Shown here: one piece after another, positions 2,468 to 11,044 of the stretch
Position numbering within the stretch: position 1 is the stretch's first letter
How the letters are laid out: every line of letters starts with the position of its first letter
Made by a program: the position numbers and the translations under genes
Source: Chloroflexota bacterium
GTDB taxonomy: Bacteria; Chloroflexota; Anaerolineae; Promineifilales; Promineifilaceae
DNA: 34,877 bases
Assembly (NCBI GenBank): GCA_018004935.1
Contig: JAGNBF010000078.1
Coordinates: forward strand, 1-34,877
Direction: 5' to 3'
Notes under the pieces: model-generated
Seen by the model: the letters and a program-made list of their open reading frames with translations, nothing else
Database searches by the model: none
Told to the model about the DNA's origin: nothing

Positions 2468-2560
2468 GAGGGATGGGGTCGCGGCCGCGAACTTGATGGC
2501 CGCACCTATGATGAAATGCCTATATCTCCTCAGTTCGGTTATAATGCTTGTACTGTGTAA
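2468..2560 (+). pseudogene. DUF5131 (phage Gp37/Gp68) C-terminal remnant, copy 1
   Basis: Directly after the propeller stop codon the same frame reads RGRELDGRTYDEMP and continues to a stop at 2558-2560. This matches the conserved C-terminal signature of DUF5131 proteins (a GRELDGR-T/W-DEMP type ending, from family memory). No start codon or upstream body of that gene is present. The DNA is closely similar to the copies at 3458 and 5187, and the likeness to the 5187 copy runs through the stop codon. It contains a GCGGCCGC octamer at 2481. Best read as a gene remnant or recombination scar. Confidence 0.65.
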
Positions 2561-2587
2561 GGTTTGTACTACAGAAAGAGGTTGGCC

Positions 2588-2941
2588 ATGGACTGGAACA
2601 AAACACAACAAGCCCGTCTGACTGAGTTGCGGCGACGTGAATTAGCCGGGCGTTTGACTGAGGCAGAAAAAGAAGAGTTAGCGGTTGTAATGGCCAAAAT
2701 TGAACAGGAAGAAGCCCGTTATTTAGCCCCGGCCATCGAAAAAATGCGAGCGGAGCAGGCCATCCTGGAGGAGCGTCTGCAAAAGCTCCATGCAGATAAC
2801 GAAGCCCTGGCGAAATTGTTAAATCAACAGGAACAACTGGCAGCCGAGGCACGCCGTTGGTTAGCTGATTTTGAAGCACGGCATTTACGTATTCAACAAA
2901 CTTATACGCGCTTGACTGGAGAAAGATTAACACCTGTATGA
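2588..2941 (+). CDS. Coiled-coil protein paired with an HNH nuclease
   Basis: 117 aa from ATG 2588, chosen because an AGAGG site lies just upstream and the longer TTG start (2564) has none. Nearly the whole protein is charged helix rich in Glu, Lys, Gln and Leu (for example LTEAEKEELAVVMAKIEQEE and ILEERLQKLHADNEALAKLL), predicting a long coiled coil. No enzyme motif is visible. Its stop overlaps the HNH gene start (ATGA), so the two are coupled. The HNH protein ends in its own coiled coil, so a direct complex between the two is plausible but inferred. Confidence 0.75.
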   Translation: MDWNKTQQARLTELRRRELAGRLTEAEKEELAVVMAKIEQEEARYLAPAIEKMRAEQAILEERLQKLHADNEALAKLLNQQEQLAAEARRWLADFEARHLRIQQTYTRLTGERLTPV

Positions 2942-3444
2942 GCATTCCAACAGAAACCAGAAAAGCGATACGCGAAGCATTTGGATACTGCTGTGGTTAC
3001 TGTGGCGTTGCGGAGATTCATGTAGGTAGTGAGCTAGAGGTTGATCATTTTCGCCCTTTGACACATGGTGGTACAAACGATTTGGACAACCTGATCTATG
3101 CTTGCTCGGCCTGTAACCGGTTCAAAGCCGATTATTGGCCTGAAGAGGATGATCCTGATAGTTTTTATTTGTTGCATCCAGCCGAAGACGAAATGAGTAA
3201 CCATTTGACTTTAGTAAATGATGGGCATTTTGTAGGCTTGACGCCGCGTGGTTGGTTTCATATCCAGTGGCTACATCTGAATCGCCCACAATTGATAAGT
3301 TGGCGTTTGACACAGCAGAAAGAAGCAACATTACTGGCAATCGTTGAGCAAGGGGAAATAACTCGTCATCGTCTGCAAATTAGAATTCGAGAACTTGAAC
3401 GAGAAGTGGCTGAATTACAGGAGGTAATTGCCCGTTTGTTATAG
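2938..3444 (+). CDS. HNH endonuclease with C-terminal coiled coil
   Basis: 168 aa. The N-terminal half is a zinc-ribbon HNH nuclease: CGYC near residues 19-22, the metal-binding EVDHFRP at 34-40, the middle Asn of NDLDNLIYACSACN (47-60) and the second Cys pair at 56/59. Such domains cut DNA as restriction, homing or phage nucleases. The C-terminal third (RIRELEREVAELQEVIARLL) is a leucine-rich coiled coil, matching the coupled coiled-coil gene upstream. The pair sits between two DUF5131 tail fragments, next to a toxin-antitoxin unit, so a defence or mobile-element role is likely but unproven. Confidence 0.88.
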   Translation: MSIPTETRKAIREAFGYCCGYCGVAEIHVGSELEVDHFRPLTHGGTNDLDNLIYACSACNRFKADYWPEEDDPDSFYLLHPAEDEMSNHLTLVNDGHFVGLTPRGWFHIQWLHLNRPQLISWRLTQQKEATLLAIVEQGEITRHRLQIRIRELEREVAELQEVIARLL

Positions 3445-3457
3445 ATCAACTAACAAA

Positions 3458-3520
3458 CGCGGCCGCGAACTCGATGGCCGCACCTATGACGAAATGCCTT
3501 ATTTCTCCTGGGTGGTATGA
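3458..3520 (+). pseudogene. DUF5131 C-terminal remnant, copy 2
   Basis: Fourteen bases after the HNH stop, one frame again reads RGRELDGRTYDEMP, then diverges and stops at 3518-3520. The DNA is almost identical to the copies at 2481 and 5187 over about 40 bases, including the GCGGCCGC octamer at 3459, and then shifts by one base relative to copy 1. No start codon or gene body precedes it. Confidence 0.65.
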
Positions 3521-3526
3521 AAACAA

Positions 3527-3550
3527 AAAGAGGCCCATCTGGGCCTCTTT
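3527..3550 (-). terminator. Intrinsic terminator of the hydrolase gene
   Basis: A perfect 11-bp inverted repeat (AAAGAGGCCCA / TGGGCCTCTTT, 2-base loop) ends with a T-run when read on the minus strand, 21 bases past the hydrolase stop. The A/T-rich flanks on both sides could let it work in both directions. Confidence 0.8.
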
Positions 3551-3571
3551 GAAATCAAGTACAAGAACTAG

Positions 3572-4465
3572 TTACTGTAAATACTGCTCCAACCAATCCA
3601 CAATCAACCCCGCCAGTTCCGGTTTCGTCTCCAACATCTCTGTCCCATGTCCGGCATCCTCATAAATGAGAAGTTCTACTTCTCCCGTTGCTAATGAAGC
3701 CATGATTTGGGCGTCCTCAGCCGCCGGGAACAGATCATCCTCACTGGCAATGAGGAACAGCGGCCGCGAACCATAACGCACCACTGCCTCATCTACTGCC
3801 GCACTGTTGTAATTAAGCCCTGCCGACAGCAAAACGACCGTCCGTACCTCTGGCTTATCCGCCCCGGTAAACAGCGCAAGATTAGCCCCAATGCTTCCCC
3901 CAACCAAAGCCGTGCGGGTCGCATCAATATCTTCCCGCTGCGAAAAATAAGTCCACCAACGACGCAGGTCCGCGGCCGCTTTCTCCCAACTATCATCACC
4001 CCCACTTTTACCATGATTGCGAATATCCACTGCCAGCACGGCGTACCCATGCTCAACCAACTGCTGGGCAAAGCCATTACTCTCCCATACCTGCCGATCC
4101 CCGCCCGCCATGTGTAACAGAATGACACCCGGCCAGGGAGCCTCACCCATCCCGGGATAAAACGTGCCCGTCGCTATAACCCGATCCACCGCTTCAATGG
4201 TGACAATGACCGGAGCCAAGGGATCAGGGGTAGCCGTAGCTGTGGGCGTAGCAGTGGGGATGACTGTCGCTGTGGGCAAAGGCGTCGGTGTGCTGGTGGC
4301 GGGGATTGGGGTTGGTGTAGGCAGTGCCTTGGCCGTTTGTGTCAGTGTGGGTATTAAAGCAATCGCTTCGTCAGGTGCAGTCTGGCTCTGGCAACCGATG
4401 AGGGTAAAAAGCACGATAAAACTAAGATAGCGCAGAAAAAATCGCTGTAAAAAAGTTCTCTTCAT
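3572..4465 (-). CDS. Lipoprotein alpha/beta hydrolase (dienelactone-hydrolase-like)
   Basis: 297 aa. It starts with a lipoprotein signal peptide (hydrophobic segment ending LIGC, lipobox Cys about residue 25), then a Pro/Thr-rich linker of about 60 residues typical of surface lipoproteins, then an alpha/beta hydrolase domain. Catalytic elements visible are the nucleophile elbow GGSIGA, the acid in SEDDLFP and the His in AGHGTEM; LLHMAGGDR contributes the oxyanion region. Substrate unknown; an ester or peptide substrate outside the membrane is likely. ATG at 4465 has a GGAG site 9 bases upstream. Two GCGGCCGC octamers (3760, 3972) lie inside. It is transcribed toward the DUF5131/HNH island and ends at its own terminator. 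Confidence 0.88.
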   Translation of the reverse strand: MKRTFLQRFFLRYLSFIVLFTLIGCQSQTAPDEAIALIPTLTQTAKALPTPTPIPATSTPTPLPTATVIPTATPTATATPDPLAPVIVTIEAVDRVIATGTFYPGMGEAPWPGVILLHMAGGDRQVWESNGFAQQLVEHGYAVLAVDIRNHGKSGGDDSWEKAAADLRRWWTYFSQREDIDATRTALVGGSIGANLALFTGADKPEVRTVVLLSAGLNYNSAAVDEAVVRYGSRPLFLIASEDDLFPAAEDAQIMASLATGEVELLIYEDAGHGTEMLETKPELAGLIVDWLEQYLQ

Positions 4466-4488
4466 GGTGCAATGCTCCTAGAAAAATA

Positions 4489-4660
4489 GTGCTGAGTACT
4501 GAGTACTGAGTGCCGAGTGCCGAGTGCCGAGTGCCGAGTGCCGAGTGCTGAGTAAATGCCTACCCACCGACTCGCCCACTCGCCTACTCGCTACTCGCTA
4601 CTCGCTACTCGCTACTCGCCTACTCGCCACTCGCCACTCGCCTACTCGCCACTCGCTACT
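4489..4660. repeat. Head-to-head arrays of heptanucleotide tandem repeats
   Basis: 4489-4553 is a tandem run of a 7-bp unit (GAGTGCC, with early GAGTACT variants). After a 15-base gap, 4569-4660 is a tandem run of ACTCGCC/ACTCGCT/ACTCGCC units. The second array is the near reverse complement of the first, so the whole could fold into a long imperfect hairpin. Similar logic with other units occurs at 14631-14713, 16978-17054, 30736-30863 and 34660-34678. It lies upstream of the hydrolase gene. Not a CRISPR array: units are far too short and there are no spacers. Confidence 0.85.
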
Positions 4661-4900
4661 TTCATCACCGCTTGTGAGCCTGGCTCACGTCATAGCATCA
4701 GGAGCATAACAAAAGAACCTTTCTTTATCTGGTATTGATCTGTACCACTCCCATACCACTAGTGCATCTGAGCAGAAATCCATCGTAGGTTATCCAGTGC
4801 CAGGCACTTACCACACTTTTACATACGACGAACTTCCGCGAACTTGGGCTAGCGGCGCAAGATTGAACCAATCTTGCCCGATTAAAAACGAGCGAATCCT

Positions 4901-5011
4901 GGTTCTTTGGGAAGTCAGGGGGTTGACACCAGATGTAAGGGCTGGCCTTGTGCCTGCCCCGTGTGGGGCAACCACAAGGGTTGCCCGTACCCCACGAAAC
5001 CTCAACGAACC
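4901..5011 (+). repeat. Family R1 111-bp inverted-repeat element, copy A
   Basis: Starts with GGTTCTTTGGGAA and ends with the partly complementary CAACGAACC. The inside holds a nested hairpin (CCTTGTG ... GCCCC/GGGGC ... CACAAGG). Near-identical copies are at 8377, 9830, 10917 and 23230, with shortened ones at 20987 and 28897 and a fragment near 16926. No coding capacity. Read as a MITE-like or REP-like element. Confidence 0.85.
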
Positions 5012-5140
5012 ACCATAATAACAAACCAAAGGCAAAATTTGTCCGGTTCCCTGCTCTATGTTTTCACCTAATCTTTTTTAAGTTTGGGCTGTCATCGAAA
5101 ATGAATTGGTAGATGGGGCTAAAAACGGGAGAATCTCACG

Positions 5141-5266
5141 ATGTGTATGGGTTTCCATGGCAACGGAGGAGTGCGTAAGAAGAAGCGCGGCCGCGAACGC
5201 GATGGCCGCACCTATGACGAAATGCCGGTAACGCCTGAGTTCGCTTATAATGCGCGTATTGCGTAA
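5141..5266 (+). pseudogene. Short ORF carrying the DUF5131 C-terminal signature, copy 3
   Basis: A 41-codon frame from ATG 5141 with a GGGAGA site 7 bases upstream. It reads GGVRKKKRGRERDGRTYDEMP and ends YNARIA before TAA. The GGVRKKK-GRE-DGRTYDEMP string is the characteristic end of DUF5131 (phage Gp37/Gp68) proteins, and here the likeness reaches further upstream than in copies 1 and 2. It is followed by an intrinsic terminator at 5281-5318. It may be a decayed gene end, or a translated basic micropeptide since start, ribosome site and terminator are all present. GCGGCCGC lies at 5187. Confidence 0.6.
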
Positions 5267-5280
5267 ATATGTGTTTATGA

Positions 5281-5318
5281 GTGCGGCCGCGCCTCTAATA
5301 GCGCGGCCGCACTTTTTT
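5281..5318 (+). terminator. Intrinsic terminator whose stem arms are GCGGCCGC octamers
   Basis: GTGCGGCCGCGC and GCGCGGCCGCAC form a perfect 12-bp stem with an 8-base loop, followed by TTTTTT (5313-5318). This is a textbook Rho-independent terminator for the short ORF ending at 5266. Each arm contains the octamer that is over-represented throughout the window. Confidence 0.85.
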
Positions 5319-5357
5319 CTCCTGTCTATCGCCTCAAAACAGGGCCTTTACCTGTGC

Positions 5358-8075
5358 TTAATTAGCCGTGAGCGGCAGAAAAACCTTCAGAAAATCAACC
5401 AACGTCCCTGTGTCCCCATCCCCGTCAATATATGTTTCCACATTGCCCAACAAGTCAGTAGCCCGCACCTGGAAATAATACATTTCCCCTCGTTGTACGG
5501 ACACAGGAATGGTTGGTCCAAAAACGGCTGATGTGTCTGTGGTTGTCACTAACCAGGTTGTCCAGGTTCCTGTCGCGCCTATCCGATATTGCACATCATA
5601 ATAAGCAATACCAACCTCATTATCATTGCCTGCCCATGTCACGGTGAAAAAAAGATCTGTGGAACTGATCGGTGATGAAGCAGTTGATTCCGGGGGCGTA
5701 TCATCCAGAATGATGGCGTCACTATAAGTGGATGAGATGTTTCCGGCAAAGTCCCGATACTCCGTTTCCACCGTTTTCAGGCCATTCACCGCGCTTAACG
5801 TCCACACTTTGCTCGTCGAATAACTCTCCCAGGTACTCCAATTGCCATCATTATTGCGGAAGCGCATATCGGCCACACCATTGCCAGACCCAGTAGCGGA
5901 TAGGGCTAAATTAACAACCGGAGATGTCGTATAGGCATCATCGCCATTCACAATAATGGTACCTGTGGGTAAAGTATTATCTTGGGTGATACTCAGGTCT
6001 AACAGACCTCCCACCCCTGAATCATATTGCATCGCCTCAATACGGTAGGTTGTCCCGGCGAAGAGGGTCATATTTAGCCATGAGTTGAGGCCAACCCCAC
6101 CGTCATCATCACAGCCCTGGTTGACAAGTGAACCAAACGAACCCGTCCACACTGCCAGGACGGTATCATAACTGCTCCCATCCGTGGTGATATGGTAATT
6201 TCTGGTTACTGTGGGGGTAAAACGATACCAGACACTGCGGGATTGTTTGGGTACACCAATGGAGCCGCAGGGAGAAGCCGGATCATTGCCTTGAGTTGTT
6301 GCGGCTGTTGTATTCAGATTGACAATTGAAAAGGGGGTGGAAACTACAGTAACCGCACCTGTAAAGTCGTCATTTGCTGGCCCTGTACGGTATGAAATTG
6401 TATTTTGGTATAGGGCCATAATTGGACCGGCACTGCTGTTGTTATGACCACGAGCGAGCCAGGCAGACCAATATTGGTTGAAGGTGTTATCATTTTGGTG
6501 ATAGATGGTATCCCAGATGTTGATGACGCCCGCACTCTCCGTATATTGATCATCACCCTCATTGTTGCTATCCCACATATCCCATAAGGCTCCAGCCACG
6601 CGCCCTTCCACATCATCGCCATTATTCCACCCTGAGGTGCCCCAGGTGGGATTTTCGAGGTTCAAAGAGGCCCCATTATCCCAGCGATAATAGGGGTCAT
6701 TGTTTACCGCCATGGGCAGATATTCAGCCCAGCCTTCTACCCAGGCGCATCCCTGACTGCTAGAGAGCTGAATATAATGCGGGTTACAGTTGGGGATTGA
6801 GGGTAGGGTATAGCCGTAAATCGTATACATAATGTTATGACCATACTCATGACCCACCACCGTATCAGAAAGGGGATCTGAGCCAGTCAGATGGATATTA
6901 CCGCCATGTGCATAATACGTACCATCCGTACTATCAATTTTCCACTGCACTGTCGTGGGGCCTGCTGTCTCGACGGGGTTTTGGGTTGAGCCAGTTTCAA
7001 ACCAGATAAAACGCCAGGTGTCATTCAGGTCACGCTGGATCCAATAGGCACGTTCGTAGGTACTGCCATTGCTACTTACCCAGGAGCCAATGTCATGAGT
7101 GCCATCACTGAAAACGGTGACGGGGGTCTGTGTTCCGAAGGTGTTATTCACGCTGTTACTGGTTCCCCAATCAGGATTGACTGTCGCCAGCACATCGCCA
7201 TAAGGATTGTAATTAGTATAAGAGTACAGAAGGGTGCGAACACCGGCCGCCCCTGGATTGGTGACAGGGCCGCAGGAGTAATAGCCGTTGACGGTGGTGT
7301 AACACCAGGCCAGATGACCGCCGTTATCGCCGCGTACCAGCCGCACAATAAATTCTAAAGCGGGGGTATAGTTATCGGCACGGTCATAATATCCCCAACG
7401 ACCCGTAACGGTGAGTTGGCCCAGTTCAGGAGGTTGGATAGCGGCCGCGCTGTCTGTTTCCGCAGGTATAATCCCCAGGGTTACATCCCCTTCAACATCT
7501 ACAGGCGGAGCACCGGCTGTGTTGCTCCCTTCTATGATTTGACCATCGCCCAGAGCGAGCAGTTCACCGGCCTGAATGCGTTCTGTTTCCAAGATAGGGG
7601 CGTAGCCAGCCTGCCCCTCAGTCTGCCCCACCGACAAATACAATCCGGCCATATCACCCCACTGTTCTTCGCTGGTGACGGTCCTAAAGGCCCGACAAAA
7701 CAGGGGCATATTCCCTTTACCGTTAAAAACTATGGAAGCCACCAGCGCCTGGGGCTGGTAGGCCATTAGGTCGCCCTGCCAGGAGAGATCGCCGCTCAAT
7801 AGGTGGGCTTCTGGCGGCAGTTCCAGGGTGATGAGAGTATTGGGGGCGTCCAGGATGCTTATAACATTGCAGGTCAGGGTCGCGGCCGCGCCCAGTTTCG
7901 GGTAGTGATCAATGACCAGCGTTGCCGTAATGGGGGTAGCTGGGGGCACGGAACGCCTGTCTTCTGGCTCCGCCTGAGCGGTATTGACCAGGCTTATACT
8001 GATAATGAAGAGCAAAACCAGGTATAACCAGAACTGTAGCGCTCTGTTTCGCGATGCAGACATGAACAGATACAT
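5358..8075 (-). CDS. Large secreted zinc metalloprotease with C-terminal Ig/Fn3-like domains
   Basis: 905 aa. ATG at 8075 has a strong GGAGG site 6-7 bases upstream. Residues 1-35 form a signal peptide (hydrophobic run ending NTAQA). Residues about 50-155 form a domain shared with the next upstream gene (see the lipoprotein at 8509-9132). HEYGHNIMY at 409-417 is a zinc-binding HEXXH motif, followed by CAWVEGWAEYLP (443-454) whose Glu is a candidate third ligand, as in gluzincin-type peptidases. After the peptidase comes a PPC-like beta domain (about 560-700), then two Ig/fibronectin-type domains ending FQVRATDLLGN. Predicted extracellular; substrate unknown. Octamers at 7441 and 7882. Confidence 0.88.
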   Translation of the reverse strand: MYLFMSASRNRALQFWLYLVLLFIISISLVNTAQAEPEDRRSVPPATPITATLVIDHYPKLGAAATLTCNVISILDAPNTLITLELPPEAHLLSGDLSWQGDLMAYQPQALVASIVFNGKGNMPLFCRAFRTVTSEEQWGDMAGLYLSVGQTEGQAGYAPILETERIQAGELLALGDGQIIEGSNTAGAPPVDVEGDVTLGIIPAETDSAAAIQPPELGQLTVTGRWGYYDRADNYTPALEFIVRLVRGDNGGHLAWCYTTVNGYYSCGPVTNPGAAGVRTLLYSYTNYNPYGDVLATVNPDWGTSNSVNNTFGTQTPVTVFSDGTHDIGSWVSSNGSTYERAYWIQRDLNDTWRFIWFETGSTQNPVETAGPTTVQWKIDSTDGTYYAHGGNIHLTGSDPLSDTVVGHEYGHNIMYTIYGYTLPSIPNCNPHYIQLSSSQGCAWVEGWAEYLPMAVNNDPYYRWDNGASLNLENPTWGTSGWNNGDDVEGRVAGALWDMWDSNNEGDDQYTESAGVINIWDTIYHQNDNTFNQYWSAWLARGHNNSSAGPIMALYQNTISYRTGPANDDFTGAVTVVSTPFSIVNLNTTAATTQGNDPASPCGSIGVPKQSRSVWYRFTPTVTRNYHITTDGSSYDTVLAVWTGSFGSLVNQGCDDDGGVGLNSWLNMTLFAGTTYRIEAMQYDSGVGGLLDLSITQDNTLPTGTIIVNGDDAYTTSPVVNLALSATGSGNGVADMRFRNNDGNWSTWESYSTSKVWTLSAVNGLKTVETEYRDFAGNISSTYSDAIILDDTPPESTASSPISSTDLFFTVTWAGNDNEVGIAYYDVQYRIGATGTWTTWLVTTTDTSAVFGPTIPVSVQRGEMYYFQVRATDLLGNVETYIDGDGDTGTLVDFLKVFLPLTAN

Positions 8076-8218: not shown

Positions 8219-8372
8219 CTAAGTGAACATCTAAAAATAACTTCCCGATTTAGACCTGACAGGTTTCCGAAAACCTGTCAGGTCTGTGCGGAACTTATTT
8301 TTGGACGATTACTAAGTATTCGTGCGTTTTTAATTTGACGATTTGTTGTGGCAGGTCGCCTGACCGAACCAC
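8219..8372 (+). repeat. Family R2 repeat: CCTGACAGG hairpin plus GGTCNCCTGACC block
   Basis: Contains CATCTAAAAATAACTTCCCG, then a perfect hairpin GACCTGACAGGTTT/AAACCTGTCAGGTC, then a spacer and a conserved block like TGTGGC-GGTC-CCTGACCG-CCAC. Related copies are at 9601, 11045, 17062, 28845 (degenerate) and 30215. No coding capacity. It fills most of the gap between the protease and the lipoprotein gene, next to an R1 element. Confidence 0.8.
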
Positions 8373-8376
8373 TTAT

Positions 8377-8487
8377 GGTTCTTGGGGAATTAAAGGGGTT
8401 GACACCAGATGTAGGGGTTGGCCTTGTGCCTGCCCCGTGTAGGGCAACCACAAGGGTTGCCCGTACCCCACGAAACCCCAAAGAACC
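8377..8487 (+). repeat. Family R1 111-bp element, copy B
   Basis: Same ends (GGTTCTT / AAGAACC) and inner nested hairpin as the copy at 4901. It abuts the R2 element on its left. Confidence 0.85.
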
Positions 8488-9735: not shown

Positions 9736-9829
9736 ATAATTATAAGACTTACACGCTGTGGCCCGTGCCCCATCGCGCCACACCGAGTACGGCCAGGAGA
9801 GCGGCTCCAGCAACCCCGTAAGTCCTAAA

Positions 9830-9941
9830 GGTTCTTTGGGAATTCAGGGGCTTGACACCAGATGTAGGGGCGGGCCTTATGTCTGCCCCGTGTGGGGCCA
9901 ACCACAAGGGTTGCCTGTACCCCACAAAACCCCAAAGAACC
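9830..9941 (+). repeat. Family R1 111-bp element, copy C
   Basis: GGTTCTTTGGGAATTCAGG at the left end and CCCCAAAGAACC at the right end, the most nearly perfect terminal inverted repeats of all copies, with the nested CCTTAT/GCCCC...GGGGC hairpin inside. Confidence 0.85.
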
Positions 9942-10880: not shown

Positions 10881-10916
10881 GGCTATGACTCTTTTGGCTC
10901 TTTAGGAATGGGTATT

Positions 10917-11026
10917 GGTTCTTTGGGAATTCAGGGGGTAGACACCAGATGTACGGGCTGGCCTTGTGCCTGCCCGTGTGGGGCAATCACAAGGGTTGCC
11001 CGTACCCCACGAAATCCTGAAGACCC
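10917..11026 (+). repeat. Family R1 111-bp element, copy D
   Basis: GGTTCTTTGGG left end, the same inner hairpin, and a degenerate right end. A piece of R2 (inverted GGTCAGAAGACCGGCCACAGC block) follows at 11045-11085. Confidence 0.8.
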
Positions 11027-11044
11027 AATAACTTGTTCTCAAGA

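Follow-up and report, generated by a model that had tools for sequence, protein, structure and literature searches.

The interval between priA and a phosphofructokinase gene (PFK) raises the question of why the last codons of one gene, DUF5131, should occur three times within it, each time beside small accessory genes of another kind. We address it for one Chloroflexota genome of 7.98 Mb, using as the window the whole stretch of 34,877 nucleotides that was analysed, and compare the locus with those of related genomes.

Three copies of a DUF5131 3' end

The window includes three direct repeats, all on the + strand, at 2480-2560, 3458-3508 and 5165-5266, and they encode the C-terminus of DUF5131 (PF07505). 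Tail 1 (2480-2560, + strand) reads RGRELDGRTYDEMPISPQFGYNACTV followed by a stop; it starts 13 bases past the stop codon of a propeller gene, and its open frame runs from 2468. In a DUF5131 profile of 246 positions, built from 26 intact relatives, it maps to positions 225-240. Tail 2 (3449-3520, + strand; profile positions 222-240) starts about 5 bases past the stop codon of an HNH gene and reads TNKRGRELDGRTYDEMP, then YFSWVV and a stop. It resembles tail 1 over 3458-3508, and a 1-base indel that follows ATGCC shifts its frame relative to tail 1. Tail 3 (5141-5266, + strand) is the longest remnant, with a 41-aa open frame, MCMGFHGNGGVRKKKRGRERDGRTYDEMPVTPEFAYNARIA and a stop, that maps to positions 211-241 (E 5e-6).

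The profile carries the assignment to DUF5131, as a Pfam search of the short tails themselves gives no match. The 41-residue query of tail 3 matches the ends of 240-260 aa proteins in related genomes; the proteins of L006, L007 and L008, taken in full, are DUF5131 proteins with a three-cysteine N-terminus, and elsewhere the same motif terminates intact DUF5131 genes of 240-320 aa. A degenerate DNA pattern for ELDGRTYDEMP matches 8 GTDB contigs, and a similar pattern matches one viral contig. All nine matches fall in DUF5131 reading frames (one frame-shifted, one cut off by the end of the sequence), so the motif is specific to DUF5131. That the repeats are DUF5131 3' ends, as a preliminary description of this DNA had proposed, is borne out both by their profile positions and by the motif ending intact DUF5131 genes. 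The scan of viral contigs returned one intact DUF5131 gene, and searches of phage and plasmid records with the tails returned no match. Weak matches to tail 3 that lack a full DUF5131 frame (L016, L022, L023 and L026 among them) find no support from the profile and were set aside. None of the three copies is a full-length gene with the three-cysteine motif; each keeps 20-35 codons with no body attached. Apart from the tails, this genome has one DUF5131 match, a divergent protein of 294 aa on another contig (C62).

The three-fold repeat is not a product of chance. A 26-base core, GATGGCCGCACCTAYGAYGAAATGCC, searched with up to three mismatches, has exactly three copies in the 7.98 Mb genome, all of them at this locus, on the + strand and within 2.7 kb, while its reversed control has none. 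An ordinary dispersed repeat, which the preliminary description had named as the case that would undo its reading, is expected at scattered genome sites, and no such scatter is seen. Tails 1 and 2 are identical at 48 of 51 aligned bases, with one indel in addition, tails 2 and 3 at 44 of 47, and tails 1 and 3 at 68 of 81 in an alignment that ends at the stop codon. The three nearly identical copies described earlier are thus present, but near identity is limited to about 41-51 bases, and tail 2 is frame-shifted. All three share RGRE (with GCGGCCGC embedded) and TYDEMP, a combination absent from the intact relatives compared, and tails 1 and 3 also have YNA in common. These shared derived features argue that the tails descend from one local gene end and not from three independent genes. 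In the alignment, tails 1 and 3 differ at the C-terminus mostly by substitutions that change an amino acid; together with the indel in tail 2, this suggests that the tails are decaying.

The units around the tails and the priA-PFK interval

The tails separate MazEF-like and propeller genes, a coiled-coil/HNH pair and a hydrolase region. The first unit has a small gene (833-1096, + strand) whose family search gives no match and whose putative antitoxin role rests on its position upstream of a PemK/MazF-like toxin gene (1017-1421, + strand; Pfam PF02452, E 2e-16). It is followed by a PQQ-like beta-propeller protein (1418-2467, + strand; Pfam PF13360), for which a search of 58 other genomes at E 1e-30 gave no match. 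In the second unit, a coiled-coil protein (2588-2941, + strand) is paired with an HNH endonuclease-like protein (2938-3444, + strand; Pfam PF01844). The same pair is present in G012 and G016, where no tail comes after it, so the tail is not part of the coiled-coil/HNH module. Past tail 2 lies a lipoprotein alpha/beta hydrolase gene (3572-4465, - strand; Pfam PF00561), and simple repeats and one dispersed repeat occupy the DNA between this unit and tail 3. The gene list of the preliminary description (PemK/MazF-like toxin, PQQ-like propeller, coiled coil, HNH, alpha/beta hydrolase) agrees with the Pfam assignments.

Several further observations concern these units. The HNH protein (2938-3444) shows weak similarity in PADLOC (E 2e-16) to PtuB, which belongs to the Septu defence system, and the pairing of HNH and coiled-coil genes is seen in at least two other genomes. 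Degenerate 7-mer-like arrays of the GAGTGCC / ACTCGCC type lie at 4488-4660, flanking the spacer upstream of the hydrolase gene. The dispersed repeat just upstream of tail 3 (4889-5011) is a genome-wide element of about 110-123 bp, with other window copies at 8365-8487, 9818-9940 and 10905-11027; 40 places were scored in the genome, at 92-100% identity, from 661 candidates at first pass.

The interval that holds these units is a variable region. The priA-PFK order is conserved in four relatives (G007, G008, G023 and G028), in which the gap measures 0.8-1.75 kb against about 10.6 kb here, and the contents of the interval differ between genomes. Accessory genes of putative defence function thus vary between two conserved core genes, as in a defence hotspot. 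An intact DUF5131 gene, which the preliminary description looked to relatives to supply at this locus, was found in none of the four, whose intervals have neither the gene nor a tail. The same holds for all the relatives' priA loci examined, in a comparison drawn from outside the genus, and the intact ancestral state was not seen at the locus.

Intact DUF5131 genes are common in relatives, mostly as the second gene of a pair, downstream of TcmP (TIGR04474). The two match the PADLOC candidate defence systems PDC-M30 and PDC-M41; the defence role of the pair is a prediction by others, and we treat it as a candidate. In the literature that we covered, no paper names DUF5131, and we found no tested function for the pair. 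Beside the tails, none of the genes examined was recognised as TcmP.

Orphan DUF5131 ends in other genomes

We ran the profile against two overlapping sets, 396 genomes from the class and 400 from the phylum, and found many intact DUF5131 genes plus a set of fragments. The counts that follow exclude this genome as well as fragments truncated at a contig edge, a cause of apparent orphans in G077 (C297), G463, G714, G645 (C69), G568, G699, G686 and G180. Fragments without the N-terminus occur in 13 other genomes (G394, G210, G224, G227, G743, G441, G169, G733, G182, G679, G236, G563 and G697), and fragments with the N-terminus alone in two (G085 and G689), an asymmetry with a two-sided binomial p of 0.007. 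This is the ratio of a single family, and pseudogenes in general may tend to lose their 5' side. Short tails should gain no advantage in the profile search, because longer fragments score higher. The fragments of G563 and G697 adjoin transposase genes, and we read them as ordinary IS deletions; leaving them aside, the count is 11 against 2 (p 0.02). The left ends of the remnants spread over profile positions 57-225 and lean to the 3' side, with 10 of 13 at position 144 or beyond (p 0.0035 against a uniform spread). As to the opposite type of remnant, the G085 locus (L133) has short N-terminal copies of DUF5131 (profile about 4-36) downstream of an intact gene, at 2396-2593, 2842-3144 and 4790-5379.

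The neighbours of orphan tails are often restriction, methylase or toxin-antitoxin genes. The G227 tail lies 5 bases past the stop of a BsuBI/PstI-type restriction-modification gene and the G394 tail 58 bases past a DNA methylase gene, while in G182 the tail comes almost directly after a gene with no family assignment and in G236 it comes 52 bases past a gene that we read as PIN-like. A UPF0175-type pair and other small genes in G210 are flanked by two tails that share 92% identity over 109 bp. The G224 locus has an intact DUF5131 gene, a DUF3800-like gene and, downstream of both, an orphan tail; an AbiEi-like gene lies further along. The G224 orphan and intact gene share 92% identity over 104 bp. 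The layout in both genomes resembles that of the window, with similar 3' ends in one locus and unrelated genes between them. Tails at module borders, the core of the preliminary description, are therefore a recurrent arrangement: orphan DUF5131 3' ends stand at accessory-gene borders in other genomes, twice in duplicate (G210, G224). One G210 remnant (L073, 4170-4390) is split by about 200 bp that start with GGGCTGTTCAGTT, end with GAAAACTGAACAGCCC and lie beside a repeated TTTGACGGGCAT; the insert resembles a MITE with terminal inverted repeats and a target duplication.

Ordinary repeated decay could leave tails too, if tandem DUF5131 paralogues had each been eroded from the 5' side, and the tails would then have taken no part in recombination. 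The drift of frames with the 1-base indel in tail 2, the mostly amino-acid-changing differences between the C-terminal parts of tails 1 and 3, and the IS-linked deletions of DUF5131 that occur elsewhere (L128, L130) all fit such a history. However, the tails share derived sequence, at 94% over 41-51 bp, in a part where the DUF5131 genes of different genera diverge strongly, and paired similar tails within one locus recur in G210 and G224. We regard repeated decay as possible, and as a reading that we do not prefer.

The DNA just past the tails bears on another alternative. An inverted repeat resembling a terminator hairpin (3527-3550) lies just past tail 2, where the HNH and hydrolase genes converge, and a strong terminator-like hairpin (5279-5314, + strand) lies 13 bases past the stop codon of tail 3. 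Defining a strong hairpin by a score of at least 23.5 within 110 bases, we find one after 5 of 17 tails against about 5% of random control windows (p 0.001); the other 12 tails have no strong terminator. The tails might be kept for a function of their own, as a small peptide (41 aa in tail 3) or as a 3' untranslated or terminator element of the upstream gene. Each of the three has a frame open as far as its stop codon, tail 3 also has an ATG preceded by GGGAG, and tails 2 and 3 have their hairpins. Nevertheless, from ATGCC onward tail 2 is frame-shifted against tail 1, the differences in the C-terminal parts mainly change amino acids, and most orphan tails elsewhere have no strong hairpin after them, all of which makes a retained function improbable.

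We find it similarly improbable that the DUF5131 3' end is the attachment site of a site-specific recombinase, each unit being a cassette with a fixed tail. Tails 1 and 2 do start about 5-13 bases past the preceding stop, G227 (5 bases) is alike and G182 almost immediate, and the G224 order of intact DUF5131, accessory gene and orphan tail is the layout expected for insertion at a 3' end. But the left ends, from 57 to 225 in the profile, vary in a way that argues against a site-specific recombinase, and homologous coiled-coil/HNH pairs do without a tail in G012 and G016, so that the fixed boundary of an integron-like cassette is not observed. There is no Rfam element in the stretch, and we saw no integrase-like gene among the ORFs annotated in detail between priA and PFK, those outside 9.1-11.4 kb; a recombinase could act from elsewhere. 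The repeated insertion at a defined 3'-end site suggested in the preliminary description is not supported: the left ends vary, the array here has no intact DUF5131 gene upstream of it, where G224 has one, the HNH pairs of G012 and G016 do without a tail, and the four relatives with the priA-PFK order have neither gene nor tail in the interval. Its view of the tail as a cassette boundary is supported in the loose sense of module borders and recombination scars, but not in the strict sense of a fixed attachment site.

Module turnover and comparison with known systems

The reading we favour, and think probable, is that the tails are scars left as defence modules turned over, and that homologous or illegitimate recombination duplicated them locally. 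What the data show is the identity of the remnants, their number and position, their recurrence and their asymmetry; the recombination route and the reason why the 3' end is kept are inferences. A DUF5131 gene, second in a candidate TcmP-DUF5131 pair, would once have stood in the variable region now found between priA and the phosphofructokinase gene. Its upstream part would have been swapped for other modules (MazEF-like plus propeller, coiled-coil/HNH), with the gene body lost and the last 20-35 codons left, and duplication of this one local gene end in place would have given three tails. Recombination between tails, also put forward in the preliminary description, is plausible, and we infer its route: short tail homology or microhomology would be the likeliest, leading to direct repeats in the order tail-unit-tail, from which a unit could then loop out. 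Either single-crossover integration or illegitimate recombination might place repeats around unrelated units. A homology of 41-51 bp between tails is near the lower limit for RecA-dependent recombination. As to why the 3' end in particular would be kept, a convergent gene often faces the tail, and the end may have been retained through its adjacency to a terminator shared with that convergent neighbour; the terminators after tails 2 and 3 may help to keep it.

One idea is that recombination produced the junctions at GCGGCCGC, an abundant octamer. It is at this octamer that the homology of tail 1 starts, but tails 2 and 3 align slightly past it. A broader proposal, that DUF5131 3' ends are portable recombination borders, with the modules of defence regions gained and lost by exchange through short tails and the tails recording this turnover phylum-wide, we consider doubtful.

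The octamer, the NotI octamer, is an observation in itself. It has 12,040 copies in 7.98 Mb (about 1,510 per Mb), 54 of them in the window (at 2481, 3459 and 5187, for instance); in 34 relatives of the same family, counts per genome run from 41 to 1,959. What look like milder cases are found in G016 (1,462 copies, reversed control 2) and G025 (797 copies, reversed control 13). Cyanobacterial HIP1 has a density of 300-2,700 per Mb (PMC4390886), and the octamer is HIP1-like, its density here falling within that range. Our literature search for HIP1-like abundance outside cyanobacteria found no report.

Should this pattern hold, one candidate defence gene would have left its 3' ends as scars from which past modules and swap points can be read in genomes, and such a cheap, remnant-based record of TcmP-DUF5131 gain and loss could be useful. 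If instead the bias to 3' remnants proves general, what we describe would be ordinary gene decay at a variable locus.

Compared with known systems, the tails match the TcmP-DUF5131 pair in being the 3' end of its second gene, but here the last 20-35 codons occur alone, in three copies and with no recognised TcmP neighbour. The order of a gene and then a repeated short sequence is that of integron gene cassettes; here, however, the length of the repeat is not fixed, no integrase is seen among the ORFs annotated in detail, a known gene supplies the repeat from its coding sequence, and modules found here occur elsewhere without it. Defence-island hotspots between core genes have been described (PMC10121019, PMC10250203). 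The likeness is that toxin-antitoxin and HNH accessory genes fill a priA-PFK interval that is short in relatives. A limited literature search gave no description of borders marked by the 3' end of one gene. In that respect this locus differs from the hotspots as described there: its internal borders are marked by copies of a single gene's 3' end.
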